Shown here in pieces: positions 3,108-55,270 of a stretch of 64,000 nucleotides of DNA (the stretch's first letter is position 1; every line of letters starts with the position of its first letter). The notes beneath the pieces are model-generated. The model ran no database searches. It was not told where the DNA came from and was given only the letters and a program-made list of their open reading frames with translations. The position numbers and the translations under genes are program-made. Source of the stretch: Phytophthora colocasiae (lineage: Eukaryota; Oomycota; Peronosporomycetes; Peronosporales; Peronosporaceae); NCBI GenBank assembly GCA_018806915.1, contig JAGKQI010000093.1, positions 868,001 through 932,000 on the forward strand, given 5' to 3'.

Positions 3108-3108
3108 A

Positions 3109-13044: not shown

Positions 13045-13062
13045 GGTCAGGTGGAGGGGGAT

Positions 13063-15547: not shown

Positions 15548-15808
15548 CTTGCACCGTTCGACGCAGAGACGCAGCCCAAGATCGGTGGTGTCCAGCGAAT
15601 ACTATTCACAGCCTGCTATAATCTGGAAAGCTCCAAGTACAACATAAGTCAGCAAGTGGCAGACGTTCTGACAGCTTACCTGATCATGCACTACTCGCTT
15701 ATAAAGAAGCTTCGCGAAGATGGACTTGCTGCCCGACGCATGGAAGATGCTGTTGAACACGCGGGATCATCGGTCGCTGAACAGCTAGCTTGGTCGCAAA
15801 AGCAGTGA
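15548..15808 (+). pseudogene. Crypton recombinase, 3' part, truncated at the tRNA array
   Basis: Continues the Crypton frame after the duplicated CTTG: the joined codons read L-A-P-F-D-A, followed by a helical segment (ACYNLESSKYNISQQVADV, then LIKKLREDGLAARRMEDAVE). The reading ends QLAWSQKQ at 15808, where the last codons already belong to the tRNA repeat, which starts at GCAAAAGCAG (15796). The recombinase is thus cut off at the array border, by array growth or by a recombination event there. Confidence 0.75.
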
Positions 15809-15908
15809 GGTGCGAGGAGAAGCGTGTGCAGAGAGCAGTGATGTGTGTGGGAGCTGCGTGGGGAGCGTGCTGGCGGCGCGACAAGTGGGCGTGAAATGTG
15901 GTTTGCGT

Positions 15909-15980
15909 GGCCTTGTGGTCTAGTGGTATGATTCTCGCTTAGGGTGCGAGAGGTCCCGGATTCGATCTCCGGCAAGGCCC
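15909..15980 (+). tRNA. tRNA-Pro(AGG), array copy 1
   Basis: Reference copy. Acceptor stem GGCCTTG pairs with CAAGGCC (15973-15979), with discriminator C. The anticodon stem CTCGC/GCGAG closes the 7-base loop TTAGGGT, giving anticodon AGG (decodes CCU, and CCC/CCA if A34 becomes inosine). The T-arm is CCGGA-TTCGATC-TCCGG. The internal Pol III promoter is intact: A box TGGTCTAGTGG and B box GATTCGATCTC. No intron and no encoded CCA, as expected for a eukaryotic nuclear gene. It closely resembles animal tRNA-Pro(AGG) in the D and anticodon arms. The next copy starts 385 bp on. Confidence 0.96.
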
Positions 15981-16013
15981 TGCTCTTTGCTCGTCGTTTC
16001 GGACACCCGTTTG

Positions 16014-16027
16014 TTTTTGCCGTTTTT
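16014..16027 (+). terminator. Pol III T-run terminators of array copy 1 (representative)
   Basis: The first run of four or more T after the gene is TTTTT at 16014-16018, then TTTTT at 16023-16027. The nearest terminator is therefore ~34 nt past the tRNA end; the bases between hold only TTT runs. The same arrangement recurs in every unit, with runs of 4 or 5 T and sometimes three TTTTTGCCG copies (near 39490, 44215 and 46970). Confidence 0.7.
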
Positions 16028-16293
16028 GCCGTCTTCGAGCCGTTGTATTGTCCGTTGGCACGGCAGCAGTGTCGTCGAGCGTGTGACATACGAGTGTACC
16101 GGCCAGATCCCCCCAAAACCCCCGTTGAGTGTCGGGTTGTGATTGTAGCTGGTTGAGAAGGCATGTTTGGGCGTGGAGAGTGGCAAAAGCAGCGAGGTGC
16201 GAGGAGAAGCGTGTGCAGAGAGCAGTGATGTGTGGGAGCTGCGTGGGGAGCGTGCTGGCGGCGCGACAAGTGGGCGTGAAATGTGGTTTGCGT

Positions 16294-16365
16294 GGCCTTG
16301 TGGTCTAGTGGTATGATTCTCGCTTAGGGTGCGAGAGGTCCCGGATTCGATCTCCGGCAAGGCCC
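16294..16365 (+). tRNA. tRNA-Pro(AGG), array copy 2
   Basis: Identical to copy 1; next copy 387 bp on. Confidence 0.95.
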
Positions 16366-16680
16366 TGCTCTTTGCTCGTCGTTTCGGACACCCGTTTGTT
16401 TTTGCCGTTTTTGCCGTCTTCGAGCCGTTGTATTGTCCGTTGGCACGGCAGCAGTGTCGTCGAGCGTGTGACATACGAGTGTACCGGCCAGATCCCCCCA
16501 AAAAACCCGTTGAGTGTCGGGTTGTGATTGTAGCTGGTTGAGAAGGCATGTTTGGGCGTGGAGAGTGGCAAAAGCAGCGAGGTGCGAGGAGAAGCGTGTG
16601 CAGAGAGCAGTGATGTGTGTGGGAGCTGCGTGGGGAGCGTGCTGGCGGCGCGACAAGTGGGCGTGAAATGTGGTTTGCGT

Positions 16681-16752
16681 GGCCTTGTGGTCTAGTGGTA
16701 TGATTCTCGCTTAGGGTGCGAGAGGTCCCGGATTCGATCTCCGGCAAGGCCC
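16681..16752 (+). tRNA. tRNA-Pro(AGG), array copy 3
   Basis: Identical to copy 1; next copy 386 bp on. Confidence 0.95.
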
Positions 16753-17066
16753 TACTCTTTGCTCGTCGTTTCGGACACCCGTTTGTTTTGCCGTTTTGCC
16801 GTCTTCGAGCCGTTGTATTGTCCGTTGGCACGGCAGCAGTGTCGTCGAGCGTGTGACATACGAGTGTACCGGCCAGATCCCCAAAACCCGTTGAGTGTCG
16901 AAAATGGTAGTTGTGATTGTAGCTGGTTGAGAAGGCATGTTTGGGCGTGGAAGTGGCAAAAGCAGCGAGGTGCGAGGAGAAGCGTGTGCAGAGAGCAGTG
17001 ATGTGTGGGAGCTGCGTGGGGAGCGTGCTGGCGGCGCGACAAGTGGGCGTGAAATGTGGTTTGCGT

Positions 17067-17138
17067 GGCCTTGTGGTCTAGTGGTATGATTCTCGCTTAG
17101 GGTGCGAGAGGTCCCGGATTCGATCTCCGGCAAGGCCC
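17067..17138 (+). tRNA. tRNA-Pro(AGG), array copy 4
   Basis: Identical to copy 1; its 3' spacer is diverged at 17180-17232; next copy 392 bp on. Confidence 0.95.
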
Positions 17139-17458
17139 TGCTCTTTGCTCGTCGTTTCGGACACCCGTTTGTTTTTGCCGTATTTCGCCACATCGAGCCT
17201 TTGAATTGACCGATGGCACGGAAGAAGAGTTGTCGAGCGTGTGACATACGAGTGTACCGGCCAGATCCCCAAACCCCCGTTAAGTGTCGAAAATGGTAGT
17301 TGTGATTGTAGCTGGTTGAGAAGGCATGTTTGGGCGTGGAGAGTGGCAAAAGCAGCGAGGTGCGAGGAGAAGCGTGTGCAGAGAGCAGTGATGTGTGTGG
17401 GAGCTGCGTGGGGAGCGTGCTGGCGGCGCGACAAGTGGGCGTGAAATGTGGTTTGCGT

Positions 17459-17530
17459 GGCCTTGTGGTCTAGTGGTATGATTCTCGCTTAGGGTGCGAG
17501 AGGTCCCGGATTCGATCTCCGGCAAGGCCC
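17459..17530 (+). tRNA. tRNA-Pro(AGG), array copy 5
   Basis: Identical to copy 1; next copy 395 bp on. Confidence 0.95.
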
Positions 17531-17853
17531 TGCTCTTTGCTCGTCGTTTCGGACACCCGTTTGTTTTTGCCGTTTTTGCCGTCTTCGAGCCTTTGTATTG
17601 TCCGTTGGCACGGCAGCAGTGTCGTCGAGCGTGTGACATACGAGTGTACCGGCCAGATCCCCCCAAAACCCCCGTTGAGTGTCGAAAATGGTAGTTGTGA
17701 TTGTAGCTGGTTGAGAAGGCATGTTTGGGCGTGGAGAGTGGCAAAAGCAGCGAGGTGCGAGGAGAAGCGTGTGCAGAGAGCAGTGATGTGTGTGGGAGCT
17801 GCGTGGGGAGCGTGCTGGCGGCGCGACAAGTGGGCGTGAAATGTGGTTTGCGT

Positions 17854-17925
17854 GGCCTTGTGGTCTAGTGGTATGATTCTCGCTTAGGGTGCGAGAGGTC
17901 CCGGATTCGATCTCCGGCAAGGCCC
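17854..17925 (+). tRNA. tRNA-Pro(AGG), array copy 6
   Basis: Identical to copy 1; next copy 395 bp on. Confidence 0.95.
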
Positions 17926-18248
17926 TGCTCTTTGCTCGTCGTTTCGGACACCCGTTTGTTTTTGCCGTTTTTGCCGTCTTCGAGCCGTTGTATTGTCCGT
18001 TGGCACGGCAGCAGTGTCGTCGAGCGTGTGACATACGAGTGTACCGGCCAGATCCCCCCAAAACCCCCGTTAAATGTCGAAAATGGTAGTTGTGATTGTA
18101 GCTGGTTGAGAAGGCATGTTTGGGCGTGGAGAGTGGCAAAAGCAGCGAGGTGCGAGGAGAAGCGTGTGCAGAGAGCAGTGATGTGTGTGGGAGCTGCGTG
18201 GGGAGCGTGCTGGCGGCGCGACAAGTGGGCGTGAAATGTGGTTTGCGT

Positions 18249-18320
18249 GGCCTTGTGGTCTAGTGGTATGATTCTCGCTTAGGGTGCGAGAGGTCCCGGA
18301 TTCGATCTCCGGCAAGGCCC
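18249..18320 (+). tRNA. tRNA-Pro(AGG), array copy 7
   Basis: Identical to copy 1; next copy 395 bp on. Confidence 0.95.
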
Positions 18321-18643
18321 TGCTCTTTGCTCGTCGTTTCGGACACCCGTTTGTTTTTGCCGTTTTTGCCGTCTTCGAGCCGTTGTATTGTCCGTTGGCA
18401 CGGCAGCAGTGTCGTCGAGCGTGTGACATACGAGTGTACCGGCCAGATCCCCCAAAAACCCCCGTTTACTGTCGAAAATGGTAGTTGTGATTGTAGCTGG
18501 TTGAGAAGGCATGTTTGGGCGTGGAGAGTGGCAAAAGCAGCGAGGTGCGAGGAGAAGCGTGTGAAGAGAGACCAGAGGTCTGTGGGAGCTGCGAGAGGAG
18601 CGTGCTGGCGGCGCGACAAGTGGGCGTGAAATGTGGTTTGCGT

Positions 18644-18715
18644 GGCCTTGTGGTCTAGTGGTATGATTCTCGCTTAGGGTGCGAGAGGTCCCGGATTCGA
18701 TCTCCGGCAAGGCCC
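18644..18715 (+). tRNA. tRNA-Pro(AGG), array copy 8
   Basis: Identical to copy 1; next copy 391 bp on. Confidence 0.95.
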
Positions 18716-19034
18716 TGCTCTTTGCTCGTCGTTTCGGTCACCCGTTTGTTTTGCCGTTTTTGCCGTCTTCGAGCCGTTGTATTGTCCGTTGGCACGGCAG
18801 CAGTGTCGTCGAGCGTGTGACATACGAGTGTACCAGCCAGATCCCCAAAACCCCGTTGAGTGTCTAAACTGGTAGTTGTGATTGTAGCTGGTTGAGAAGG
18901 CATGTTTGGGCGTGGAGAGTGGCAAAAGCAGCGAGGTGCGAGGAGAAGCGTGTGCAGAGAGCAGTGATGTGTGTGGGAGCTGCGTGGGGAGCGTGCTGGC
19001 GGCGCGACAAGTGGGCGTGAAATGTGGTTTGCGT

Positions 19035-19105
19035 GGCCTTGTGGTCTAGTGGTATGATTCTCGCTTAGGTGCGAGAGGTCCCGGATTCGATCTCCGGCAA
19101 GGCCC
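19035..19105 (+). tRNA. tRNA-Pro variant, array copy 9 (one G missing in anticodon loop)
   Basis: 71 nt. The loop reads TTAGGT instead of TTAGGGT, a 6-base anticodon loop between intact stems, so it is probably non-functional as a normal Pro tRNA. Next copy 392 bp on. Confidence 0.85.
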
Positions 19106-19426
19106 TGCTCTTTGCTCGTCGTTTCGGACACCCGTTTGTTTTTGCCGTTTTGCCGTCTTCGAGCCGTTGTATTGTCCGTTGGCACGGCAGCAGTGTCGTC
19201 GAGCGTGTGACATACGAGTGTACCGGCCAGATCCCCCCAAAAACCCCGTTGAGTGTCTAAAATGGTAGTTGTGATTGTATCTGGTTGAGAAGGCATGTTT
19301 GGGCGTGCAGATTGTCAAAAGCAGCGAGGTGCGAGGAGAAGCGTGTGCAGAGAGCAGTGATGTGTGTGGAGCTGCGTGGGGAGCGTGCTGGCGGCGCGAC
19401 AAGTGGGCGTGAAATGTGGTTTGCGT

Positions 19427-19498
19427 GGCCTTGTGGTCTAGTGGTATGATTCTCGCTTAGGGTGCGAGAGGTCCCGGATTCGATCTCCGGCAAGGCCC
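19427..19498 (+). tRNA. tRNA-Pro(AGG), array copy 10
   Basis: Identical to copy 1; next copy 394 bp on. Confidence 0.95.
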
Positions 19499-19820
19499 TG
19501 CTCTTTGCTCGTCGTTTCGGACACCCGTTTGTTTTTGCCGTTTTGCCGTCTTCGAGCCGTTGTATTGTCCGTTGGCACGGCAGCAGTGTCGGCTAGCGTG
19601 TGACATACGAGTGTACCGGCCAGATCCCCCCAAAACCCCCGTTGAGTGTCGAAAATGGTAGTTGTGATTGTAGCTGGTTGAGAAGGCATGTTTGGGCGTG
19701 GAGAGTGGCAAAAGCAGCGAGGTGCGAGGAGAAGCGTGTGCAGAGAGCAGTGATGTGTGTGGGAGCTGCGTGGGGAGCGTGCTGGCGGCGCGACAAGTGG
19801 GCGTGAAATGTGGTTTGCGT

Positions 19821-19892
19821 GGCCTTGTGGTCTAGTGGTATGATTCTCGCTTAGGGTGCGAGAGGTCCCGGATTCGATCTCCGGCAAGGCCC
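19821..19892 (+). tRNA. tRNA-Pro(AGG), array copy 11
   Basis: Identical to copy 1; next copy 395 bp on. Confidence 0.95.
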
Positions 19893-20215
19893 TGCTCTTT
19901 GCTCGTCGTTTCGGACACCCGTTTGTTTTTGCCGTTTTTGCCGTCTTCGAGCCGTTGTATTGTCCGTTGGCACGGCAGCAGTGTCGTCGAGCGTGTGACA
20001 TACGAGTGTACCGGCCAGATCCCCCCAAAAACCCCGTTGAGTGTCGAAAATGGTAGTTGTGATTGTAGCTGGTTGAGAAGGCATGTTTGGGCGTGGAGAG
20101 TGGCAAAAGCAGCGAGGTGCGAGGAGAAGCGTGTGCAGAGAGCAGTGATGTGTGTGGGAGCTGCGTGGGGAGCGTGCTGGCGGCGCGACAAGTGGGCGTG
20201 AAATGTGGTTTGCGT

Positions 20216-20287
20216 GGCCTTGTGGTCTAGTGGTATGATTCTCGCTTAGGGTGCGAGAGGTCCCGGATTCGATCTCCGGCAAGGCCC
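20216..20287 (+). tRNA. tRNA-Pro(AGG), array copy 12
   Basis: Identical to copy 1; next copy 393 bp on. Confidence 0.95.
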
Positions 20288-20608
20288 TGCTCTTTGCTCG
20301 TCGTTTCGGACACCCGTTTGTTTTTGCCGTTTTTGCCGTCTTCGAGCCGTTGTATTGTCCGTTGGCACGGCAGCAGTGTCGTCGAGCGTGTGACATACGA
20401 GTGTACCGGCCAGATCCCCCCAAAAACCCCGTTGAGTGTCGAAAATGGTAGTTGTGATTGTAGCTGGTTGAGAAGGCATGTTTGGGCGTGGAGAGTGGCA
20501 AAAGCAGCGAGGTGCGAGGAGAAGCGTGTGCAGAGAGCAGTGATGTGTGGGAGCTGCGTGGGGAGCGTGCTGGCGGCGCGACAAGTGGGCGTGAAATGTG
20601 GTTTGCGT

Positions 20609-20680
20609 GGCCTTGTGGTCTAGTGGTATGATTCTCGCTTAGGGTGCGAGAGGTCCCGGATTCGATCTCCGGCAAGGCCC
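20609..20680 (+). tRNA. tRNA-Pro(AGG), array copy 13
   Basis: Identical to copy 1; next copy 391 bp on. Confidence 0.95.
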
Positions 20681-20999
20681 TGCTCTTTGCTCGTCGTTTC
20701 GGACACCCGTTTGTTTTGCCGTTTTGCCGTCTTCGAGCCGTTGTATTGTCCGTTGGCACGGCAGCAGTGTCGTCGAGCGTGTGACATACGAGTGTACCGG
20801 CCAGATCCCCCCAAAAACCCCGTTGAGTGTCGAAAATGGTAGTTGTGATTGTAGCTGGTTGAGAAGGCATGTTTGGGCGTGGAGAGTGGCAAAAGCAGCG
20901 AGGTGCGAGGAGAAGCGTGTGCAGAGAGCAGTGATGTGTGGGAGCTGCGTGGGGAGCGTGCTGGCGGCGCGACAAGTGGGCGTGAAATGTGGTTTGCGT

Positions 21000-21071
21000 G
21001 GCGGTGTGGTCTAGTGGGATGAGTCTAGCTTAGGGTGCGAGAGGTCCCGGATTCGATCTCCGGCAAGGCCC
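21000..21071 (+). pseudogene. tRNA-Pro pseudogene, array copy 14
   Basis: Five or more substitutions in the 5' half: acceptor GGCGGTG instead of GGCCTTG, GTGGGATGAG in the D arm, and CTAGC in the anticodon stem. The 3' half and anticodon AGG are normal. The acceptor stem cannot pair properly. Next copy 394 bp on. Confidence 0.85.
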
Positions 21072-21393
21072 TGCTCTTTGCTCGGCGTTTCGGACACCCG
21101 TTTGTTTTGCCGTTTTTGCCGTCTTCGAGCCGTTGTATTGTCCGTTGGCACGGCAGCAGTGTCGTCGAGCGTGTGACATACGAGTGTACCGGCCAGATCC
21201 CCCCAAAAACCCCGTTGAGTGTCGAAAATGGTAGTTGTGATTGTATCTGGTTGAGAAGGCATGTTTGGGCGTGGAGAGTGGCAAAAGCAGCGAGGTGCGA
21301 GGAGAAGCGTGTGCAGAGAGCAGTTCAGGGCGCTCGAGCGGCGTGGGGAGCGTGCTGGCGGCGCGACAAGTGGGCGTGAAATGTGGTTTGCGT

Positions 21394-21465
21394 GGCCTTG
21401 TGGTCTAGTGGTATGATTCTCGCTTAGGGTGCGAGAGGTCCCGGATTCGATCTCCGGCAAGGCCC
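21394..21465 (+). tRNA. tRNA-Pro(AGG), array copy 15
   Basis: Identical to copy 1; next copy 393 bp on. Confidence 0.95.
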
Positions 21466-21786
21466 TGCTCTTTGCTCGTCGTTTCGGACACCCGTTTGTT
21501 TTTGCCGTTTTTGCCGTCTTCGAGCCGTTGTATTGTCCGTTGGCACGGCAGCAGTGTCGTCGAGCGTGTGACATACGAGTGTACCGGCCAGATCCCCCCA
21601 AAACCCCCGTTGAGTGTCGAAAATGGTAGTTGTGATTGTAGCTGGTTGAGAAGGCATGTTTGGGCGTGGAGAGTGGCAAAAGCAGCGAGGTGCGAGGAGA
21701 AGCGTGTGCAGAGAGCAGTGATGTGTGGGAGCTGCGTGGGGAGCGTGCTGGCGGCGCGACAAGTGGGCGTGAAATGTGGTTTGCGT

Positions 21787-21858
21787 GGCCTTGTGGTCTA
21801 GTGGTATGATTCTCGCTTAGGGTGCGAGAGGTCCCGGATTCGATCTCCGGCAAGGCCC
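21787..21858 (+). tRNA. tRNA-Pro(AGG), array copy 16
   Basis: Identical to copy 1; next copy 387 bp on. Confidence 0.95.
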
Positions 21859-22173
21859 TGCTCTTTGCTCGTCGTTTCGGACACCCGTTTGTTTTTGCCG
21901 TTTTTGCCGTCTTCGAGCCGTTGTATTGTCCGTTGGCACGGCAGCAGTGTCGTCGAGCGTGTGACATACGAGTGTACCGGCCAGATCCCCCCAAAACCCC
22001 CGTTGAGTGTCGGGTTGTGATTGTAGCTGGTTGAGAAGGCATGTTTGGGCGTGGAGAGTGGCAAAAGCAGCGAGGTGCGAGGAGAAGCGTGTGCAGAGAG
22101 CAGTGATGTGTGTGGGAGCTGCGTGGGGAGCGTGCTGGCGGCGCGACAAGTGGGCGTGAAATGTGGTTTGCGT

Positions 22174-22245
22174 GGCCTTGTGGTCTAGTGGTATGATTCT
22201 CGCTTAGGGTGCGAGAGGTCCCGGATTCGATCTCCGGCAAGGCCC
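22174..22245 (+). tRNA. tRNA-Pro(AGG), array copy 17
   Basis: Identical to copy 1; next copy 395 bp on. Confidence 0.95.
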
Positions 22246-22568
22246 TGCTCTTTGCTCGTCGTTTCGGACACCCGTTTGTTTTTGCCGTTTTTGCCGTCTT
22301 CGAGCCGTTGTATTGTCCGTTGGCACGGCAGCAGTGTCGTCGAGCGTGTGACATACGAGTGTACCGGCCAGATCCCCCCAAAAAACCCGTTGAGTGTCGA
22401 AAATGGTAGTTGTGATTGTAGCTGGTTGAGAAGGCATGTTTGGGCGTGGAGAGTGGCAAAAGCAGCGAGGTGCGAGGAGAAGCGTGTGCAGAGAGCAGTG
22501 ATGTGTGTGGGAGCTGCGTGGGGAGCGTGCTGGCGGCGCGACAAGTGGGCGTGAAATGTGGTTTGCGT

Positions 22569-22640
22569 GGCCTTGTGGTCTAGTGGTATGATTCTCGCTT
22601 AGGGTGCGAGAGGTCCCGGATTCGATCTCCGGCAAGGCCC
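22569..22640 (+). tRNA. tRNA-Pro(AGG), array copy 18
   Basis: Identical to copy 1; next copy 395 bp on. Confidence 0.95.
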
Positions 22641-22963
22641 TGCTCTTTGCTCGTCGTTTCGGACACCCGTTTGTTTTTGCCGTTTTTGCCGTCTTCGAGC
22701 CGTTGTATTGTCCGTTGGCACGGCAGCAGTGTCGTCGAGCGTGTGACATACGAGTGTACCGGCCAGATCCCCCCAAAAACCCCGTTGAGTGTCGAAAATG
22801 GTAGTTGTGATTGTAGCTGGTTGAGAAGGCATGTTTGGGCGTGGAGAGTGGCAAAAGCAGCGAGGTGCGAGGAGAAGCGTGTGCAGAGAGCAGTGATGTG
22901 TGTGGGAGCTGCGTGGGGAGCGTGCTGGCGGCGCGACAAGTGGGCGTGAAATGTGGTTTGCGT

Positions 22964-23035
22964 GGCCTTGTGGTCTAGTGGTATGATTCTCGCTTAGGGT
23001 GCGAGAGGTCCCGGATTCGATCTCCGGCAAGGCCC
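22964..23035 (+). tRNA. tRNA-Pro(AGG), array copy 19
   Basis: Identical to copy 1; next copy 390 bp on. Confidence 0.95.
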
Positions 23036-23353
23036 TGCTCTTTGCTCGTCGTTTCGGACACCCGTTTGTTTTTGCCGTTTTTGCCGTCTTCGAGCCGTTG
23101 TATTGTCCGTTGGCACGGCAGCAGTGTCGTCGAGCGTGTGACATACGAGTGTACCGGCCAGATCCCCAAAACCCCGTTGAGTGTCGAAAATGGTAGTTGT
23201 GATTGTAGCTGGTTGAGAAGGCATGTTTGGGCGTGGAGAGTGGCAAAAGCAGCGAGGTGCGAGGAGAAGCGTGTGCAGAGAGCAGTGATGTGTGGGAGCT
23301 GCGTGGGGAGCGTGCTGGCGGCGCGACAAGTGGGCGTGAAATGTGGTTTGCGT

Positions 23354-23425
23354 GGCCTTGTGGTCTAGTGGTATGATTCTCGCTTAGGGTGCGAGAGGTC
23401 CCGGATTCGATCTCCGGCAAGGCCC
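23354..23425 (+). tRNA. tRNA-Pro(AGG), array copy 20
   Basis: Identical to copy 1; next copy 390 bp on. Confidence 0.95.
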
Positions 23426-23743
23426 TGCTCTTTGCTCGTCGTTTCGGACACCCGTTTGTTTTTGCCGTTTTGCCGTCTTCGAGCCGTTGTATTGTCCGTT
23501 GGCACGGCAGCAGTGTCGTCGAGCGTGTGACATACGAGTGTACCGGCCAGATCCCCAAAACCCCGTTGAGTGTCGAAAATGGTAGTTGTGGATTGTAGCT
23601 GGTTGAGAAGGCATGTTTGGGCGTGGAGAGTGGCAAAAGCAGCGAGGTGCGAGGAGAAGCGTGTGCAGAGAGCAGTGATGTGTGGGAGCTGCGTGGGGAG
23701 CGTGCTGGCGGCGCGACAAGTGGGCGTGAAATGTGGTTTGCGT

Positions 23744-23815
23744 GGCCTTGTGGTCTAGTGGTATGATTCTCGCTTAGGGTGCGAGAGGTCCCGGATTCGA
23801 TCTCCGGCAAGGCCC
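23744..23815 (+). tRNA. tRNA-Pro(AGG), array copy 21
   Basis: Identical to copy 1; next copy 395 bp on. Confidence 0.95.
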
Positions 23816-24138
23816 TGCTCTTTGCTCGTCGTTTCGGACACCCGTTTGTTGTTGCCGTGTTTGCCGTCTTCGAGCCGTGGTAGTGTCCGTTGGCACGGCA
23901 GCAGTGTCGTCGAGCGTGTGACATACGAGTGTACCGGCCAGATCCCCCCAAAAAACCCGTTAAATGTCGAAAATGGTAGTTGTGATTGTAGCTGGTTGAG
24001 AAGGCAGGTTTGGGCGGGGCGAGTGGCAAAAGCAGCGAGGTGCGAGGAGACGCGTGTGCAGAGAGCAGTGATGTGTGCGCGAGCTGCGTGGGGAGCGTGC
24101 TGGCGGCGCGACAAGTGGGCGTGAAATGTGGTTTGCGT

Positions 24139-24210
24139 GGCCTTGTGGTCTAGTGGTATGATTCTCGCTTAGGGTGCGAGAGGTCCCGGATTCGATCTCC
24201 GGCAAGGCCC
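24139..24210 (+). tRNA. tRNA-Pro(AGG), array copy 22
   Basis: Identical to copy 1; next copy 395 bp on. Confidence 0.95.
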
Positions 24211-24533
24211 TGCTCTTTGCTCGTCGTTTCGGACACCCGTTTGTTTTTGCCGTTTTTGCCGTCTTCGAGCCGTTGTATTGTCCGTTGGCACGGCAGCAGT
24301 GTCGTCGAGCGTGTGACATACGAGTGTACCGGCCAGATCCCCCCAAAAACCCCGTTGAGTGTCGAAAATGGTAGTTGTGATTGTAGCTGGTTGAGAAGGC
24401 ATGTTTGGGCGTGGAGAGTGGCAAAAGCAGCGAGGTGCGAGGAGAAGCGTGTGCAGAGAGCAGTGATGTGTGTGGGAGCTGCGTGGGGAGCGTGCTGGCG
24501 GCGCGACAAGTGGGCGTGAAATGTGGTTTGCGT

Positions 24534-24605
24534 GGCCTTGTGGTCTAGTGGTATGATTCTCGCTTAGGGTGCGAGAGGTCCCGGATTCGATCTCCGGCAA
24601 GGCCC
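24534..24605 (+). tRNA. tRNA-Pro(AGG), array copy 23
   Basis: Identical to copy 1; next copy 394 bp on. Confidence 0.95.
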
Positions 24606-24927
24606 TGCTCTTTGCTCGTCGTTTCGGACACCCGTTTGTTTTTGCCGTTTTGCCGTCTTCGAGCCGTTGTATTGTCCGTTGGCACGGCAGCAGTGTCGTC
24701 GAGCGTGTGACATACGAGTGTACCGGCCAGATCCCCCCAAAAACCCCGTTGAGTGTCGAAAATGGTAGTTGTGATTGTAGCTGGTTGAGAAGGCATGTTT
24801 GGGCGTGGAGAGTGGCAAAAGCAGCGAGGTGCGAGGAGAAGCGTGTGCAGAGAGCAGTGATGTGTGTGGGAGCTGCGTGGGGAGCGTGCTGGCGGCGCGA
24901 CAAGTGGGCGTGAAATGTGGTTTGCGT

Positions 24928-30784: not shown

Positions 30785-30856
30785 GGCCTTGTGGTCTAGT
30801 GGTATGATTCTCGCTTAGGGTGCGAGAGGTCCCGGTGTCGATCTCCGGCAAGGCCC
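30785..30856 (+). tRNA. tRNA-Pro(AGG) variant, array copy 39
   Basis: T arm reads CCGGTGTCGATC instead of CCGGATTCGATC: the last T-stem pair and T54 are changed, and so is the B box. Transcription and folding are probably weakened. Next copy 393 bp on. Confidence 0.85.
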
Positions 30857-45758: not shown

Positions 45759-46077
45759 TGCTCTTTGCTCGTCGTTTCGGACACCCGTTTGTTTTTGCCG
45801 TTTTGCCGTCTTCGAGCCGTTGTATTGTCCGTTGGCACGGCAGCAGTGTCGTCGAGCGTGTGACATACGAGTGTACCGGCCAGATCCCCAAAACCCCGTT
45901 GAGTGTCGAAAATGGTAGTTGTGATTGTAGCTGGTTGAGAAGGCATGTTTGGGCGTGGAGAGTGGCAAAAGCAGCGAGGTGCGAGGAGAAGCGTGTGCAG
46001 AGAGCAGTGATGTGTGTGGGAGCTGCGTGGGGAGCGTGCTGGCGGCGCGACAAGTGGGCGTGAAATGTGGTTTGCGT

Positions 46078-46149
46078 GGCCTTGTGGTCTAGTGGTATGA
46101 TTCTCGCTTAGGGTGCGAGAGGTCCCGGATTCGATCTCCGGCAAGGCCC
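46078..46149 (+). tRNA. tRNA-Pro(AGG), array copy 78
   Basis: Identical to copy 1; next copy 390 bp on. Confidence 0.95.
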
Positions 46150-46467
46150 TGCTCTTTGCTCGTCGTTTCGGACACCCGTTTGTTTTTGCCGTTTTTGCCG
46201 TCTTCGAGCCGTTGTATTGTCCGTTGGCACGGCAGCAGTGTCGTCGAGCGTGTGACATACGAGTGTACCGGCCAGATCCCCAAAACCCCGTTGAGTGTCG
46301 AAAATGGTAGTTGTGATTGTAGCTGGTTGAGAAGGCATGTTTGGGCGTGGAGAGTGGCAAAAGCAGCGAGGTGCGAGGAGAAGCGTGTGCAGAGAGCAGT
46401 GATGTGTGGGAGCTGCGTGGGGAGCGTGCTGGCGGCGCGACAAGTGGGCGTGAAATGTGGTTTGCGT

Positions 46468-46539
46468 GGCCTTGTGGTCTAGTGGTATGATTCTCGCTTA
46501 GGGTGCGAGAGGTCCCGGATTCGATCTCCGGCAAGGCCC
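46468..46539 (+). tRNA. tRNA-Pro(AGG), array copy 79
   Basis: Identical to copy 1; next copy 392 bp on. Confidence 0.95.
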
Positions 46540-46859
46540 TGCTCTTTGCTCGTCGTTTCGGACACCCGTTTGTTTTTGCCGTTTTTGCCGTCTTCGAGCC
46601 GTTGTATTGTCCGTTGGCACGGCAGCAGTGTCGTCGAGCGTGTGACATACGAGTGTACCGGCCAGATCCCCAAAACCCCGTTGAGTGTCGAAACTGGTAG
46701 TTGTGATTGTAGCTGGTTGAGAAGGCATGTTTGGGCGTGGAGAGCGCCAAACGCACCGAGGAGCGAGCAGAAGCGTGTGCAGAGAGCAGTGACGTCCGTG
46801 GGAGCTGCGTGGGGAGCGTGCTGGCGGCGCGACAAGTGGGCGTGAAATGTGGTTTGCGT

Positions 46860-46931
46860 GGCCTTGTGGTCTAGTGGTATGATTCTCGCTTAGGGTGCGA
46901 GAGGTCCCGGATTCGATCTCCGGCAAGGCCC
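46860..46931 (+). tRNA. tRNA-Pro(AGG), array copy 80
   Basis: Identical to copy 1; longest unit (405 bp), three TTTTTGCCG repeats. Confidence 0.95.
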
Positions 46932-47264
46932 TGCTCTTTGCTCGTCGTTTCGGACACCCGTTTGTTTTTGCCGTTTTTGCCGTTTTTGCCGTCTTCGAGC
47001 CGTTGTATTGTCCGTTGGCACGGCAGCAGTGTCGTCGAGCGTGTGACATACGAGTGTACCGGCCAGATCCCCCCAAAACCCCCGTTGAGTGTCGAAAATG
47101 GTAGTTGTGATTGTAGCTGGTTGAGAAGGCATGTTTGGGCGTGGAGAGTGGCAAAAGCAGCGAGGTGCGAGGAGAAGCGTGTGCAGAGAGCAGTGATGTG
47201 TGTGTGGAGCTGCGTGGGGAGCGTGCTGGCGGCGCGACAAGTGGGCGTGAAATGTGGTTTGCGT

Positions 47265-47335
47265 GGCCTTGTGGTCTAGTGGTATGATTCTCGCTTAGGT
47301 GCGAGAGGTCCCGGATTCGATCTCCGGCAAGGCCC
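47265..47335 (+). tRNA. tRNA-Pro variant, array copy 81 (one G missing in anticodon loop)
   Basis: 71 nt with the same 6-base loop TTAGGT as copy 9, 28 kb away. Next copy 388 bp on. Confidence 0.85.
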
Positions 47336-47652
47336 TGCTCTTTGCTCGTCGTTTCGGACACCCGTTTGTTTTTGCCGTTTTGCCGTCTTCGAGCCGTTGT
47401 ATTGTCCGTTGGCACGGCAGCAGTGTCGTCGAGCGTGTGACATACGAGTGTACCGGCCAGATCCCCAAAACCCCGTTGAGTGTCGAAAATGGTAGTTGTG
47501 ATTGTAGCTGGTTGAGAAGGCATGTTTGGGCGTGGAGAGTGGCAAAAGCAGCGAGGTGCGAGGAGAAGCGTGTGCAGAGAGCAGTGATGTGTGGGAGCTG
47601 CGTGGGGAGCGTGCTGGCGGCGCGACAAGTGGGCGTGAAATGTGGTTTGCGT

Positions 47653-47724
47653 GGCCTTGTGGTCTAGTGGTATGATTCTCGCTTAGGGTGCGAGAGGTCC
47701 CGGATTCGATCTCCGGCAAGGCCC
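47653..47724 (+). tRNA. tRNA-Pro(AGG), array copy 82
   Basis: Identical to copy 1; next copy 391 bp on. Confidence 0.95.
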
Positions 47725-48043
47725 TGCTCTTTGCTCGTCGTTTAGGACGCCCGTTTGTTTTGCCGTTTTTGCCGTCTTCGAGCCGTTGTATTGTCCGTTG
47801 GCACGGCAGCAGTGTCGTCGAGCGTGTGACATACGAGTGTACCGGCCAGATCCCCAAAACCCCGTTGAGTGTCGAAAATGGTAGTTGTGATTGTAGCTGG
47901 TTGAGAAGGCATGTTTGGGCGTGGAGAGTGGCAAAAGCAGCGAGGTGCGAGGAGAAGCGTGTGCAGAGAGCAGTGATGTGTGTGGGAGCTGCGTGGGGAG
48001 CGTGCTGGCGGCGCGACAAGTGGGCGTGAAATGTGGTTTGCGT

Positions 48044-48115
48044 GGCCTTGTGGTCTAGTGGTATGATTCTCGCTTAGGGTGCGAGAGGTCCCGGATTCGA
48101 TCTCCGGCAAGGCCC
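48044..48115 (+). tRNA. tRNA-Pro(AGG), array copy 83
   Basis: Identical to copy 1; next copy 393 bp on. Confidence 0.95.
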
Positions 48116-48436
48116 TGCTCTTTGCTCGTCGTTTCGGACACCCGTTTGTTTTGCCGTTTTTGCCGTCTTCGAGCCGTTGTATTGTCCGTTGGCACGGCAG
48201 CAGTGTCGTCGAGCGTGTGACATACGAGTGTACCGGCCAGATCCCCCCAAAAACCCCGTTGAGTGTCGAAAATGGTAGTTGTGATTGTAGCTGGTTGAGA
48301 AGGCATGTTTGGGCGTGGAGAGTGGCAAAAGCAGCGAGGTGCGAGGAGAAGCGTGTGCAGAGAGCAGTGATGTGTGTGGAGCTGCGTGGGGAGCGTGCTG
48401 GCGGCGCGACAAGTGGGCGTGAAATGTGGTTTGCGT

Positions 48437-48508
48437 GGCCTTGTGGTCTAGTGGTATGATTCTCGCTTAGGGTGCGAGAGGTCCCGGATTCGATCTCCGG
48501 CAAGGCCC
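48437..48508 (+). tRNA. tRNA-Pro(AGG), array copy 84
   Basis: Identical to copy 1; next copy 393 bp on. Confidence 0.95.
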
Positions 48509-48829
48509 TGCTCTTTGCTCGTCGTTTCGGACACCCGTTTGTTTTGCCGTTTTGCCGTCTTCGAGCCGTTGGATTGTCCGTTGGCACGGCAGCAGTGTCG
48601 TCGAGCGTGTGACATACGAGGGGACGTGCCATATCGCCCCCAAACCCCCGTTGAGTGTCGAAAATGGTAGTTGTGATTGTAGCTGGTTGAGAAGGCATGT
48701 TTGGGCGTGGAGAGTGGCAAAAGCAGCGAGGTGCGAGGAGAAGCGTGTGCAGAGAGCAGTGATGTGTGTGGGAGCTGCGTGGGGAGCGTGCTGGCGGCGC
48801 GACAAGTGGGCGTGAAATGTGGTTTGCGT

Positions 48830-48901
48830 GGCCTTGTGGTCTAGTGGTATGATTCTCGCTTAGGGTGCGAGAGGTCCCGGATTCGATCTCCGGCAAGGCC
48901 C
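48830..48901 (+). tRNA. tRNA-Pro(AGG), array copy 85
   Basis: Identical to copy 1; next copy 391 bp on. Confidence 0.95.
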
Positions 48902-49220
48902 TGCTCTTTGCTCGTCGTTTCGGACACCCGTTTGTTTTTGCCGTTTTGCCGTCTTCGAGCCGTTGTATTGTCCGTTGGCACGGCAGCAGTGTCGTCGAGC
49001 GTGTGACATACGAGTGTACCGGCCAGATCCCCAAAACCCCGTTGAGTGTCGAAAATGGTAGTTGTGATTGTAGCTGGTTGAGAAGGCATGTTTGGGCGTG
49101 GAGAGTGGCAAAAGCAGCGAGGTGCGAGGAGAAGCGTGTGCAGAGAGCAGTGATGTGTGTGGGAGCTGCGTGGGGAGCGTGCTGGCGGCGCGACAAGTGG
49201 GCGTGAAATGTGGTTTGCGT

Positions 49221-49292
49221 GGCCTTGTGGTCTAGTGGTATGATTCTCGCTTAGGGTGCGAGAGGTCCCGGATTCGATCTCCGGCAAGGCCC
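49221..49292 (+). tRNA. tRNA-Pro(AGG), array copy 86
   Basis: Identical to copy 1; next copy 393 bp on. Confidence 0.95.
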
Positions 49293-49613
49293 TGCTCTTT
49301 GCTCGTCGTTTCGGACACCCGTTTGTTTTTGCCGTTTTTGCCGTCTTCGAGCCGTTGTATTGTCCGTTGGCACGGCAGCAGTGTCGTCGAGCGTGTGACA
49401 TACGAGTGTACCGGACAGTTCCCCCATAAGACCGGTTGAGTGTCGAAAATGGTAGTTGTGATTGTAGCTGGTTGAGAAGGCATGTTTGGGCGTGGAGAGT
49501 GGCAAAAAGCAGCGAGGTGCGAGGAGAAGCGTGTGCAGAGAGCAGTGATGTGTGGGAGCTGCGTGGGGAGCGTGCTGGCGGCGCGACAAGTGGGCGTGAA
49601 ATGTGGTTTGCGT

Positions 49614-49685
49614 GGCCTTGTGGTCTAGTGGTATGATTCTCGCTTAGGGTGCGAGAGGTCCCGGATTCGATCTCCGGCAAGGCCC
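49614..49685 (+). tRNA. tRNA-Pro(AGG), array copy 87
   Basis: Identical to copy 1; next copy 386 bp on. Confidence 0.95.
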
Positions 49686-49999
49686 TGCTCTTTGCTCGTC
49701 GTTTCGGACACCCGTTTGTTTTGCCGTTTTTGCCGTCTTCGAGCCGTTGTATTGTCCGTTGGCACGGCAGCAGTGTCGTCGAGCGTGTGACATACGAGTG
49801 TACCGGCCAGATCCCCCCAAAAACCCCGTTGAGTGTCAGGTTGTGATTGTAGCTGGTTGAGAAGGCATGTTTGGGCGTGGAGAGTGGCAAAAGCAGCGAG
49901 GTGCGAGGAGAAGCGTGTGCAGAGAGCAGTGATGTGTGGGGTAGCATCTAGGGGAGAGTGCTGGCGTCGCGACAAGTGGGCGTGAAATGTGGTTTGCGT

Positions 50000-50071
50000 G
50001 GCCTTGTGGTCTAGTGGTATGATTCTCGCTTAGGGTGCGAGAGGTCCCGGATTCGATCTCCGGCAAGGCCC
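50000..50071 (+). tRNA. tRNA-Pro(AGG), array copy 88
   Basis: Identical to copy 1; next copy 395 bp on. Confidence 0.95.
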
Positions 50072-50394
50072 TGCTCTTCGCTAGTCGTCTCGGTGACCGG
50101 TGTTATTTTGCGGTTTTTGCCGTCCTCGAGCCGTTGTATTGTCCGTTGGCACGGCAGCAGTGTCGTCGAGCGTGTGACATACGAGTGTACCGGCCAGATC
50201 CCCCCAAAAACCCCGTTGAGTGTCGAAAATGGTAGTTGTGATTGTAGCTGGTTGAGAAGGCATGTTTGGGCGTGGAGAGTGGCAAAAGCAGCGAGGTGCG
50301 AGGAGAAGCGTGTGCAGAGAGCAGTGATGTGTGTGGGAGCTGCGTGGGGAGCGTGCTGGCGGCGCGACAAGTGGGCGTGAAATGTGGTTTGCGT

Positions 50395-50466
50395 GGCCTT
50401 GTGGTCTAGTGGTATGATTCTCGCTTAGGGTGCGAGAGGTCCCGGATTCGATCTCCGGCAAGGCCC
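50395..50466 (+). tRNA. tRNA-Pro(AGG), array copy 89
   Basis: Identical to copy 1; next copy 391 bp on. Confidence 0.95.
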
Positions 50467-50785
50467 TGCTCTTTGCTCGTCGTTTCGGACACCCGTTTGT
50501 TTTGCCGTTTTTGCCGTCTTCGAGCCGTTGTATTGTCCGTTGGCACGGCAGCAGTGTCGTCGAGCGTGTGACATACGAGTGTACCGGCCAGATCCCCAAA
50601 ACCCCGTTGAGTGTCGAAAATGGTAGTTGTGATTGTAGCTGGTTGAGAAGGCATGTTTGGGCGTGGAGAGTGGCAAAAGCAGCGAGGTGCGAGGAGAATC
50701 GTGAGCAGAGATCAGAGAAGGTAGAGGTAGATGCGAGGGTAGCGAGCAGGCGGCGCGACAAGTGGGCGTGACATGTGGTTTGCGT

Positions 50786-50857
50786 GGCCTTGTGGTCTAG
50801 TGGTATGATTCTCGCTTAGGGTGCGAGAGGACCCGGATTCGATCTCCGGCAAGGCCC
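50786..50857 (+). tRNA. tRNA-Pro(AGG) variant, array copy 90
   Basis: A single T-to-A change in the variable region (GAGAGGACCCGG); stems intact, probably functional. Next copy 388 bp on. Confidence 0.92.
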
Positions 50858-51173
50858 TGCTCTTTGCTCGTCGTTTAGGACACCCGTTTGTTTTGCCGTT
50901 TTGCCGTCTTCGAGCCGTTGTATTGTCCGTTGGCACGGCAGCAGTGTCGTCGAGCGTGTGACATACGAGTGTACCGGCCAGATCCCCAAAACCCCGTTGA
51001 GTGTCGAAAATGGTAGTTGTGATTGTAGCTGGTTGAGAAGGCATGTTTGGGCGTGGAGAGTGGCAAAAGCAGCGAGGTGCGACGAGAAGCGTGTGCAGAG
51101 AGCAGTGATGTGTGGGAGCTGCGTGGGGAGCGTGCTGGCGGCGCGACAAGTGGGCGTGAAATGTGGTTTGCGT

Positions 51174-51245
51174 GGCCTTGTGGTCTAGTGGTATGATTCT
51201 CGCTTAGGGTGCGAGAGGTCCCGGATTCGATCTCCGGCAAGGCCC
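51174..51245 (+). tRNA. tRNA-Pro(AGG), array copy 91
   Basis: Identical to copy 1; next copy 395 bp on. Confidence 0.95.
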
Positions 51246-51568
51246 TGCTCTTTGCTCGTCGTTTCGGACACCCGTTTGTTTTTGCCGTTTTTGCCGTCTT
51301 CGAGCCGTTGTATTGTCCGTTGGCACGGCAGCAGTGTCGTCGAGCGTGTGACATACGAGTGTACCGGCCAGATCCCCCCCAAACCCCCGTTGAGTGTCGA
51401 AAATGGTAGTTGTGATTGTAGCTGGTTGAGAAGGCATGTTTGGGCGTGGAGAGTGGCAAAAGCAGCGAGGTGCGAGGAGAAGCGTGTGCAGAGAGCAGTG
51501 ATGTGTGTGGGAGCTGCGTGGGGAGCGTGCTGGCGGCGCGACAAGTGGGCGTGAAATGTGGTTTGCGT

Positions 51569-51640
51569 GGCCTTGTGGTCTAGTGGTATGATTCTCGCTT
51601 AGGGTGCGAGAGGTCCCGGATTCGATCTCCGGCAAGGCCC
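51569..51640 (+). tRNA. tRNA-Pro(AGG), array copy 92
   Basis: Identical to copy 1; next copy 387 bp on. Confidence 0.95.
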
Positions 51641-51955
51641 TGCTCTTTGCTCGTCGTTTCGGACACCCGTTTGTTTTTGCCGTTTTTGCCGTCTTCGAGC
51701 CGTTGTATTGTCCGTTGGCACGGCAGCAGTGTCGTCGAGCGTGTGACATACGAGTGTACCGGCCAGATCCCCCCAAAAACCCCGTTGAGTGTCGAAAATG
51801 GTAGTTGTGATTGTAGCTGGTTGAGAAGGCATGTTTGGGCGTGCAAAAGCAGCGAGGTGCGAGGAGAAGCGTGTGCAGAGAGCAGTGATGTGTGTGGGAG
51901 CTGCGTGGGGAGCGTGCTGGCGGCGCGACAAGTGGGCGTGAAATGTGGTTTGCGT

Positions 51956-52027
51956 GGCCTTGTGGTCTAGTGGTATGATTCTCGCTTAGGGTGCGAGAGG
52001 TCCCGGATTCGATCTCCGGCAAGGCCC
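51956..52027 (+). tRNA. tRNA-Pro(AGG), array copy 93
   Basis: Identical to copy 1; next copy 395 bp on. Confidence 0.95.
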
Positions 52028-52350
52028 TGCTCTTTGCTCGTCGTTTCGGACACCCGTTTGTTTTTGCCGTTTTTGCCGTCTTCGAGCCGTTGTATTGTCC
52101 GTTGGCACGGCAGCAGTGTCGTCGAGCGTGTGACATACGAGTGTACCGGCCAGATCCCCCCAAAAACCCCGTTGAGTGTCGAAAATGGTAGTTGTGATTG
52201 TAGCTGGTTGAGAAGGCATGTTTGGGCGTGGAGAGTGGCAAAAGCAGCGAGGTGCGAGGAGAAGCGTGTGCAGAGAGCAGTGATGTGTGTGGGAGCTGCG
52301 TGGGGAGCGTGCTGGCGGCGCGACAAGTGGGCGTGAAATGTGGTTTGCGT

Positions 52351-52422
52351 GGCCTTGTGGTCTAGTGGTATGATTCTCGCTTAGGGTGCGAGAGGTCCCG
52401 GATTCGATCTCCGGCAAGGCCC
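52351..52422 (+). tRNA. tRNA-Pro(AGG), array copy 94
   Basis: Identical to copy 1; next copy 392 bp on. Confidence 0.95.
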
Positions 52423-52742
52423 TGCTCTTTGCTCGTCGTTTCGGACACCCGTTTGTTTTTGCCGTTTTTGCCGTCTTCGAGCCGTTGTATTGTCCGTTGG
52501 CACGGCAGCAGTGTCGTCGAGCGTGTGACATACGAGTGTACCGGCCAGATCCCCCAAAACCCCCGTTGAGTGTCGAAAATGGTAGTTGTGATTGTAGCTG
52601 GTTGAGAAGGCATGTTTGGGCGTGGAGAGTGGCAAAAGCAGCGAGGTGCGAGGAGAAGCGTGTGCAGAGAGCAGTGATGTGTGGGAGCTGCGTGGGGAGC
52701 GTGCTGGCGGCGCGACAAGTGGGCGTGAAATGTGGTTTGCGT

Positions 52743-52814
52743 GGCCTTGTGGTCTAGTGGTATGATTCTCGCTTAGGGTGCGAGAGGTCCCGGATTCGAT
52801 CTCCGGCAAGGCCC
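52743..52814 (+). tRNA. tRNA-Pro(AGG), array copy 95
   Basis: Identical to copy 1; next copy 394 bp on. Confidence 0.95.
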
Positions 52815-53136
52815 TGCTCTTTGCTCGTCGTTTCGGACACCCGTTTGTTTTTGCCGTTTTTGCCGTCTTCGAGCCGTTGTATTGTCCGTTGGCACGGCAG
52901 CAGTGTCGTCGAGCGTGTGACATACGAGTGTACCGGCCAGATCCCCCAAAACCCCCGTTGAGTGTCGAAAATGGTAGTTGTGATTGTAGCTGGTTGAGAA
53001 GGCATGTTTGGGCGTGGAGAGTGGCAAAAGCAGCGAGGTGCGAGGAGAAGCGTGTGCAGAGAGCAGTGATGTGTGTGGGAGCTGCGTGGGGAGCGTGCTG
53101 GCGGCGCGACAAGTGGGCGTGAAATGTGGTTTGCGT

Positions 53137-53208
53137 GGCCTTGTGGTCTAGTGGTATGATTCTCGCTTAGGGTGCGAGAGGTCCCGGATTCGATCTCCGG
53201 CAAGGCCC
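53137..53208 (+). tRNA. tRNA-Pro(AGG), array copy 96
   Basis: Identical to copy 1; next copy 394 bp on. Confidence 0.95.
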
Positions 53209-53530
53209 TGCTCTTTGCTCGTCGTTTCGGACACCCGTTTGTTTTTGCCGTTTTTGCCGTCTTCGAGCCGTTGTATTGTCCGTTGGCACGGCAGCAGTGT
53301 CGTCGAGCGTGTGACATACGAGTGTACCGGCCAGATCCCCCAAAACCCCCGTTGAGTGTCGAAAATGGTAGTTGTGATTGTAGCTGGTTGAGAAGGCATG
53401 TTTGGGCGTGGAGAGTGGCAAAAGCAGCGAGGTGCGAGGAGAAGCGTGTGCAGAGAGCAGTGATGTGTGTGGGAGCTGCGTGGGGAGCGTGCTGGCGGCG
53501 CGACAAGTGGGCGTGAAATGTGGTTTGCGT

Positions 53531-53602
53531 GGCCTTGTGGTCTAGTGGTATGATTCTCGCTTAGGGTGCGAGAGGTCCCGGATTCGATCTCCGGCAAGGC
53601 CC
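53531..53602 (+). tRNA. tRNA-Pro(AGG), array copy 97
   Basis: Identical to copy 1; next copy 394 bp on. Confidence 0.95.
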
Positions 53603-53924
53603 TGCTCTTTGCTCGTCGTTTCGGACACCCGTTTGTTTTTGCCGTTTTGCCGCCTTCGAGCCGTTGTATGGGCCGTTGGCACGGCAGCAGTGTCGTCGAG
53701 CGTGTGACATACGAGTGTACCGGCCAGATCCCCCCAAAAACCCCGTTGAGTGTCGAAAATGGTAGTTGTGATTGTAGCTGGTTGAGAAGGCATGTTTGGG
53801 CGTGGAGAGTGGCAAAAGCAGCGAGGTGCGAGGAGAAGCGTGTGCAGAGAGCAGTGATGTGTGTGGGAGCTGCGTGGGGAGCGTGCTGGCGGCGCGACAA
53901 GTGGGCGTGAAATGTGGTTTGCGT

Positions 53925-53996
53925 GGCCTTGTGGTCTAGTGGTATGATTCTCGCTTAGGGTGCGAGAGGTCCCGGATTCGATCTCCGGCAAGGCCC
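53925..53996 (+). tRNA. tRNA-Pro(AGG), array copy 98
   Basis: Identical to copy 1; next copy 393 bp on. Confidence 0.95.
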
Positions 53997-54317
53997 TGCT
54001 CTTTGCTCGTCGTTTCGGACACCCGTTTGTTTTGCCGTTTTTGCCGTCTTCGAGCCGTTGTATTGTCCGTTGGCACGGCAGCAGTGTCGTCGAGCGTGTG
54101 ACATACGAGTGTACCGGCCAGATCCCCCCAAAAACCCCGTTGAGTGTCGAAAATGGTAGTTGTGATTGTAGCTGGTTGAGAAGGCATGTTTGGGCGTGGA
54201 GAGTGGCAAAAGCAGCGAGGTGCGAGGAGAAGCGTGTGCAGAGAGCAGTGATGTGTGTGGAGCTGCGTGGGGAGCGTGCTGGCGGCGCGACAAGTGGGCG
54301 TGAAATGTGGTTTGCGT

Positions 54318-54389
54318 GGCCTTGTGGTCTAGTGGTATGATTCTCGCTTAGGGTGCGAGAGGTCCCGGATTCGATCTCCGGCAAGGCCC
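54318..54389 (+). tRNA. tRNA-Pro(AGG), array copy 99
   Basis: Identical to copy 1; next copy 389 bp on. Confidence 0.95.
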
Positions 54390-54706
54390 TGCTCTTTGCT
54401 CGTCGTTTCGGACACCCGTTTGTTTTTGCCGTTTTGCCGTCTTCGAGCCGTTGTATTGTCCGTTGGCACGGCAGCAGTGTCGTCGAGCGTGTGACATACG
54501 AGTGTACCGGCCAGATCCCCAAAACCCCGTTGAGTGTCGAAAATGGTAGTTGTGATTGTAGCTGGTTGAGAAGGCATGTTTGGGCGTGGAGAGTGGCAAA
54601 AGCAGCGAGGTGCGAGGAGAAGCGTGTGCAGAGAGCAGTGATGTGTGGGAGCTGCGTGGGGAGCGTGCTGGCGGCGCGACAAGTGGGCGTGAAATGTGGT
54701 TTGCGT

Positions 54707-54778
54707 GGCCTTGTGGTCTAGTGGTATGATTCTCGCTTAGGGTGCGAGAGGTCCCGGATTCGATCTCCGGCAAGGCCC
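54707..54778 (+). tRNA. tRNA-Pro(AGG), array copy 100
   Basis: Identical to copy 1; next copy 395 bp on. Confidence 0.95.
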
Positions 54779-55101
54779 TGCTCTTTGCTCGTCGTTTCGG
54801 ACACCCGTTTGTTTTTGCCGTTTTTGCCGTCTTCGAGCCGTTGTATTGTCCGTTGGCACGGCAGCAGTGTCGTCGAGCGTGTGACATACGAGTGTACCGG
54901 CCAGATCCCCCCAAAACCCCCGTTGAGTGTCGAAAATGGTAGTTGTGATTGTAGCTGGTTGAGAAGGCATGTTTGGGCGTGGAGAGTGGCAAAAGCAGCG
55001 AGGTGCGAGGAGAAGCGTGTGCAGAGAGCAGTGATGTGTGTGGGAGCTGCGTGGGGAGCGTGCTGGCGGCGCGACAAGTGGGCGTGAAATGTGGTTTGCG
55101 T

Positions 55102-55173
55102 GGCCTTGTGGTCTAGTGGTATGATTCTCGCTTAGGGTGCGAGAGGTCCCGGATTCGATCTCCGGCAAGGCCC
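55102..55173 (+). tRNA. tRNA-Pro(AGG), array copy 101 (last)
   Basis: Identical to copy 1. Its T-run terminators are present, but its spacer stops after 97 bp at 55270. Confidence 0.95.
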
Positions 55174-55270
55174 TGCTCTTTGCTCGTCGTTTCGGACACC
55201 CGTTTGTTTTTGCCGTTTTTGCCGTCTTCGAGCCGTTGTATTGTCCGTTGGCACGGCAGCAGTGTCGTCG

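Follow-up and report, generated by a model that had tools for sequence, protein, structure and literature searches.

A tandem array of about 100 tRNA-Pro(AGG) genes in an oomycete genome as a probable rDNA-like source of one tRNA

Long tandem arrays of tRNA genes are known from several lineages, and the closest relatives of the one considered here, a run of tRNA-Pro(AGG) genes in a 64,000-nucleotide stretch of genomic DNA (the window; C20:868001-932000 in a 92.5-Mb assembly of 105 contigs), are those of other oomycetes. The array passages of Matson 2022 (PMC9584435) report 11,056 tRNA genes and describe, for Phytophthora infestans, direct arrays with one tRNA gene per unit and near-identical copies in the monomeric arrays, including 271 tRNA-Cys copies in a 513-nt unit; copy numbers agree with read depth, roughly two-thirds of the families lie on a single chromosome, and di- and trimeric units also occur. 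The present array is organized in the same way but differs in isoacceptor and unit: the enlarged proline family named in those passages is UGG, whereas here it is Pro(AGG) in a 392-bp unit. In Peronospora effusa, the cluster passages of Skiadas 2024 (PMC11540230) give 33-39 clusters per isolate, each of 10-970 near-identical tRNAs, with units exclusive to one region, inversions and spacer open reading frames (ORFs); these are of the same kind, and were called SINE-like (resembling short interspersed nuclear elements). The present locus shares with such single-isoacceptor arrays a head-to-tail unit of fixed length, a near-identical family at one locus and an oomycete host with many arrays. It is thus ordinary for its lineage and of a kind already known, and the remark in the initial annotation that no description from an oomycete was known does not hold, since the same organization, with larger arrays, is given in the passages of both reports (PMC9584435, PMC11540230). 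A literature search, with supplements and most subscription journals outside it, returned no title on an oomycete tRNA-Pro(AGG) array, although the figures of Matson 2022 may include one.

More distant parallels differ in composition or in activity. Most Entamoeba tRNA genes also lie in long tandem arrays but, in the passages of PMC2652664 on that separate lineage, units carry 1-5 tRNA types, and those of E. histolytica and E. dispar contain complex short tandem repeats. Between the Pro(AGG) genes Tandem Repeats Finder (TRF) found no repeats of that type, short repeats of 2-3 copies being confined to four array spacers. The Arabidopsis tRNA-Pro and Tyr-Ser clusters include tandem tRNA-Pro repeats (25-27) and are predominantly methylated and repressed according to the relevant passages (PMC11700998, PMC12308677), whereas no other intact Pro(AGG) gene was found here. 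tRNA fragments are known from P. infestans, and the passages of PMC4272539 that deal with them contain no proline tRNA.

The array comprises 101 direct copies, all on the plus strand, from 15909 to 55173 (ARAGORN and a Hamming scan), a number that is the assembly's own count. ARAGORN, the kind of tRNA-finder check that had been proposed, called 100 tRNA genes in the window: 98 tRNA-Pro(AGG) and two, 71 nt long, to which it assigned no amino acid, each missing one anticodon-loop base. The Hamming scan adds the copy that ARAGORN overlooked. An identical 72-mer is present in 94 of the 101 copies; five carry substitutions and two the 1-nt loss. TRF reports a repeat of 100.7 copies with a 395-bp consensus and 97% matches; units of about 392 bp abut head to tail, adjacent copies being spaced 374-405 bp apart. 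The single isoacceptor, direct orientation, copy number, unit length, count of identical genes and 39.5-kb extent (15796 to 55270) given in the initial annotation are all reproduced. Its statement that the unit holds nothing else fits the Rfam scan of the first three array units, which returned no RNA family besides tRNA, with RF00005 at 52.8 bits (gathering threshold 29) in each. The usual T-stem pair 53-61 of tRNAs is G53-C61; by our reading of the sequence, this tRNA has A53-U61. Antisense ORFs that run across units, the longest of 627 aa, were rejected as genes and read as non-coding, because single-base variation in unit length breaks the frame. The features of the array are as follows.

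15796..55270, plus strand: tandem array, 100.7 units of about 392 bp (consensus 395), one tRNA-Pro(AGG) per unit (TRF, ARAGORN, Hamming scan)
16294..16365, plus strand: representative tRNA-Pro(AGG), 72 nt, CCA not encoded (RF00005, 52.8 bits)
16399..16412, plus strand: pair of T5 runs that begin 34 and 43 nt past the gene, the first candidate RNA polymerase III (Pol III) terminators
16646..16680, plus strand: 35 nt 5' of the next tRNA gene, of low variation jointly with the tRNA
19035..19105, plus strand: tRNA copy, 1 nt short in the anticodon loop (ARAGORN)
30785..30856, plus strand: tRNA copy with 2 substitutions (Hamming scan, no ARAGORN call)
47265..47335, plus strand: tRNA copy, 1 nt short in the anticodon loop (ARAGORN)

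The array locus appears to be the only source of intact tRNA-Pro(AGG) found in the assembly. The anticodon arm TCTCGCTTAGGGTGCGAGA has 99 exact matches genome-wide. The array accounts for 97, and the other two are in a lone inverted unit and on contig C22. The lone unit (C20:866522-866947, arm match at C20:866762) lies 17 kb left of the array and carries the intact 72-mer, so that 98 of the 99 matches belong to the array locus. The remaining match is truncated: it begins at tRNA nt 9 and is identical over 74 of 74 nt, including 10 nt of 3' flank, and ARAGORN calls no tRNA gene there. Spacer dispersal was judged by counting an 18-mer, which has 94 exact matches in 92.5 Mb, 93 of them inside the array and the last in the lone unit. 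A search with the 315-bp spacer, which skips words common in the genome and omits the array itself, recovered outside the array the lone unit alone. A sister inverted array left of the window was considered and rejected: besides the Pro gene of the lone unit, ARAGORN calls just two Arg genes in the 70 kb leftward.

The tRNA-Pro(AGG) array is, in our judgement, quite probably a locus comparable with ribosomal DNA (rDNA), supplying this tRNA from about 100 head-to-tail copies. Each unit would be transcribed by Pol III from internal A and B boxes, and transcripts would stop at the T5 runs 34-43 nt downstream. Conversion of A34 to inosine would allow the tRNA to decode CCU, CCC and CCA, while unequal exchange and gene conversion would fix copy number and hold the units alike. 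Among the possible roles listed in the initial annotation, tRNA dosage is the best supported, since no intact tRNA-Pro(AGG) gene was found outside the locus.

Variation among the 100 full units is consistent with exchange throughout the array. Per-site diversity is lower in the tRNA (0.0031) than in the spacer (0.0182). The tRNA matches the consensus in 93 of 100 units; over all 395 circular 72-nt windows the median is 58, and 47 windows reach at least 93. The stretch from -35 to +72 is consensus in 91 of 100 units and ties the best 107-nt window (a value reached by 9 of 395); it contains none of 43 shared substitutions and, with gap states included, 1 of 82 shared variants, as few as at 33 of 395 offsets. 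A conserved footprint over this stretch is suggestive only. Distinct units number 77 of 100, no identical run of three or more units recurs at any lag, and units far apart differ hardly more than neighbours do (8.72 differences at lags 81-99 against 8.15 at lag 1). Of the 98 pairings among common shared characters, 70 show all four combinations. The units thus appear to be shuffled and not locally duplicated; homogenization from neighbour to neighbour was rejected for this array on the flat distances and because rare shared variants showed no significant clustering (the fraction of the 180 carrier pairs lying within 3 units was 0.094, against 0.059 permuted, P 0.085).

Singleton substitutions are of another character. 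There are 174, of which 31 are transitions and 143 transversions; 145 fall in 18 of the 100 units, and 65 units have none. They crowd, mostly as transversions, into tracts of about 50-75 bp in otherwise standard units (e.g. units 4, 51 and 89; window 16000-55000), and these tracts are probably consensus noise. Copying of the neighbouring base was dismissed as their source, with 80 of the 174 fitting it against an expectation of 76. Three pairs of duplicated sequence in the flanks have transition:transversion counts of 0:2 (the two copies of a long terminal repeat, LTR), 4:2 and 180:149, the last alone being large enough to compare. In other arrays the singletons count 11:34 in an Asp sample (L030) and 79:90, a slight lean, in Pro-CGG; those of a second Asp sample (L028), Gly, Cys and Gln show no transversion lean.

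Several of these observations weigh against a supply locus kept by selection and exchange. Diverged tRNA-Pro(AGG) copies escape searches with exact patterns. Variants are not depleted in the tRNA part of other arrays (12 of 47 in Asp L030, 7 of 50 in Asp L028 and 26 of 181 in Pro-CGG); general purifying selection on array tRNAs is therefore unsupported, because three variant-rich samples show no such depletion. The low-variant samples gave 1 of 9 (Gly), 0 of 7 (Cys) and 0 of 14 (Gln). In these comparisons five unit starts uncalled by ARAGORN were placed by eye (one in L028, one in L030, three in L033). Recurrent indels in short runs, or noise, could mimic the four combinations, and the crowded singletons suggest consensus noise that weakens every argument from diversity. 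Lastly, contigs C4 and C72 start within tRNA arrays, and hence the assembly is incomplete at such arrays.

The alternative that survives best, though we consider it unlikely, is that the units are SINE-like or selfish satellites which contain tRNA sequence and are needless for translation. The tRNA-derived part of a SINE is usually degenerate. The tRNA part here is not, with 52.8 bits in the three units scanned and 98 Pro genes called by ARAGORN, although in the three variant-rich samples the tRNA body is at least as variable as the spacer, which speaks for this reading. The SINE-like reading was published for the P. effusa arrays, which expand and contract rapidly between isolates according to the cluster passages of PMC11540230; in the present genome no dispersed spacer copies were seen, all 94 exact 18-mer matches falling at this locus and none elsewhere in the 92.5 Mb, and the array is the only source found of its tRNA, with no further intact tRNA-Pro(AGG) detected. 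The dispersed B-box repeats of the genome are also different, 15 of 20 sampled places resembling another sampled place and none containing an ARAGORN tRNA.

An error of assembly, by which the copy number was inflated or deflated and the true array is far shorter or longer, seems quite improbable. It would draw on the crowding of singletons into few units and on the two contigs that begin within arrays. Set against these are the 77 distinct units without a recurring run of three or more, the position of the array inside a 1.87-Mb contig with flanks of different sequence on both sides, and the concordance of P. infestans array counts with read depth in the array passages of PMC9584435. Yeast tRNA genes act as insulator, condensin or nuclear-organization sites. 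A chiefly structural role of that sort, with the tRNA as a side product, was considered for the P. infestans arrays by Matson 2022, in the passages at issue (PMC9584435), but is very improbable here, since the lack of any other detected source of this tRNA already accounts for retention of the array.

The Pro(AGG) array is one of 13 array families seen in the genome. Cys and Asp arrays lie on C4, Gly-GCC and Lys on C100, Gln-CTG/TTG on C101, Pro-CGG and Met on C22, Phe on C10, Ala-His on C28, Leu-TAA on C58, Leu-CAG on C72, and Trp on C95 and C96. All 113 matches to the tRNA-Phe arm share one strand; the 100 of them that were listed fall on C10, over 58.7 kb, so the Pro(AGG) array is not the longest such locus in bp. 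In the tRNA-Cys array (C4:1-40000, L024-L027) a 4.1-4.4-kb insert occurs three times, always at one position within the tRNA gene and with a 7-bp duplication; two of the three copies are 99.6% identical, and pieces match the hAT dimerisation domain and DUF659 (below cut-off). The insert was copied along with its unit, and therefore whole blocks can be copied. The lone B-box places mentioned above (L043-L062) were 20 of the first 24 among 351 matches to GGTTCGAATCC; one gave a weak Rfam tRNA match, and they look like dispersed repeats. At L036 (C46:1100001-1103000) the B-box pattern recurs in regular steps of about 709 bp without an ARAGORN tRNA.

A feature common to these arrays, and a new observation here that is worth following, is strand asymmetry upstream of the gene. 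In the 150 bp upstream, read on the tRNA strand (e.g. window 16531-16680), G strongly exceeds C in 13 of 13 array families. The arrays sampled were L026, L030-L035, L037-L039, L068, L069 and L072, B-box repeats without an ARAGORN tRNA (L036, L041, L073, L074) being left out; arrays and lone genes were picked by convenience, not blind. GC skew was +0.47 to +0.93 in 11 of 11 arrays, one unit each, and in the two further families it was +0.47 (Trp) and +0.52 to +0.72 (Met; the Met gene at +0.52 is counted here as it lies in an array); a second Gln place gave +0.44 and +0.63. T exceeds A in 12 of the 13 families, the T/A skew of Pro-AGG being 0.00. A Gly-CCC group on C48, of uncertain spacing and kept outside the 13, gave +0.69 and +0.75. 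The skew is seen for arrays on both strands, oppositely oriented Asp copies on C4 each being skewed in their own sense, and a value of +0.51 was obtained for the lone inverted Pro unit, whose sequence is that of an array unit. None of seven lone tRNA genes, four of them two pairs of the same isoacceptor, has a strong skew (range -0.33 to +0.13), and a promoter of all tRNA genes was rejected as an explanation on this ground. Of 528 control 150-bp windows, five reach an absolute skew of 0.38, the extremes being +0.38 and -0.49; the latter exceeds the weakest arrays in size. A mechanism shared among arrays is possible, if doubtful: the array-specific tract may be an element, or the scar, of some process of recombination, R-loop formation or replication by which the arrays grow and are kept homogeneous.

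The left flank of the array is occupied by one further feature.

1646..15547, plus strand: LTR element, LTRs at 1646-3107 and 14110-15547, with protease, reverse transcriptase, integrase and chromodomain matches

This 13.9-kb element lies outside the array, ending 248 bp to its left; its LTRs differ by 2 substitutions and 1 indel, its reverse transcriptase match is below the Pfam cut-off, and from the domain order we take it to be of Ty3/gypsy type. Antisense ORFs within it (window 11379-14199, minus strand) gave one weak spectrin-like match below cut-off. The element splits another ORF (window 763-1650 and 15548-15796), whose downstream frame reaches the array edge: 763-1650 is matched by residues 36-331 of protein P0069, and the frame from 15548 by its residues 331-366. 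Pfam finds no family in 763-1650, and the designation of this ORF as tyrosine-recombinase-like rests on the names of some relatives ('Tyr recombinase domain-containing'). A protein encoded some 18 kb to the left of the window has 68 matches, and all those that name an organism are oomycetes, which bears out the oomycete host proposed in the initial annotation. The best is from P. oleae (89% over the whole length); identity is 94% to a 294-residue Phyca11 model, a prefix that presumably denotes P. capsici, and 76% to P. capsici record DVH05_002870. By this one protein the genome would be placed near Phytophthora capsici and P. oleae.

Two recent papers disagree about such arrays, one taking them for tRNA genes and the other for SINE-like repeats, and the Pro(AGG) locus is relevant to deciding between them. 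If an anticodon has its only intact genes in a single array, that array has to belong to the translation apparatus, managed in the manner of rDNA. For the question of how arrays are maintained, the strand-asymmetric upstream tract offers a concrete point of attack.

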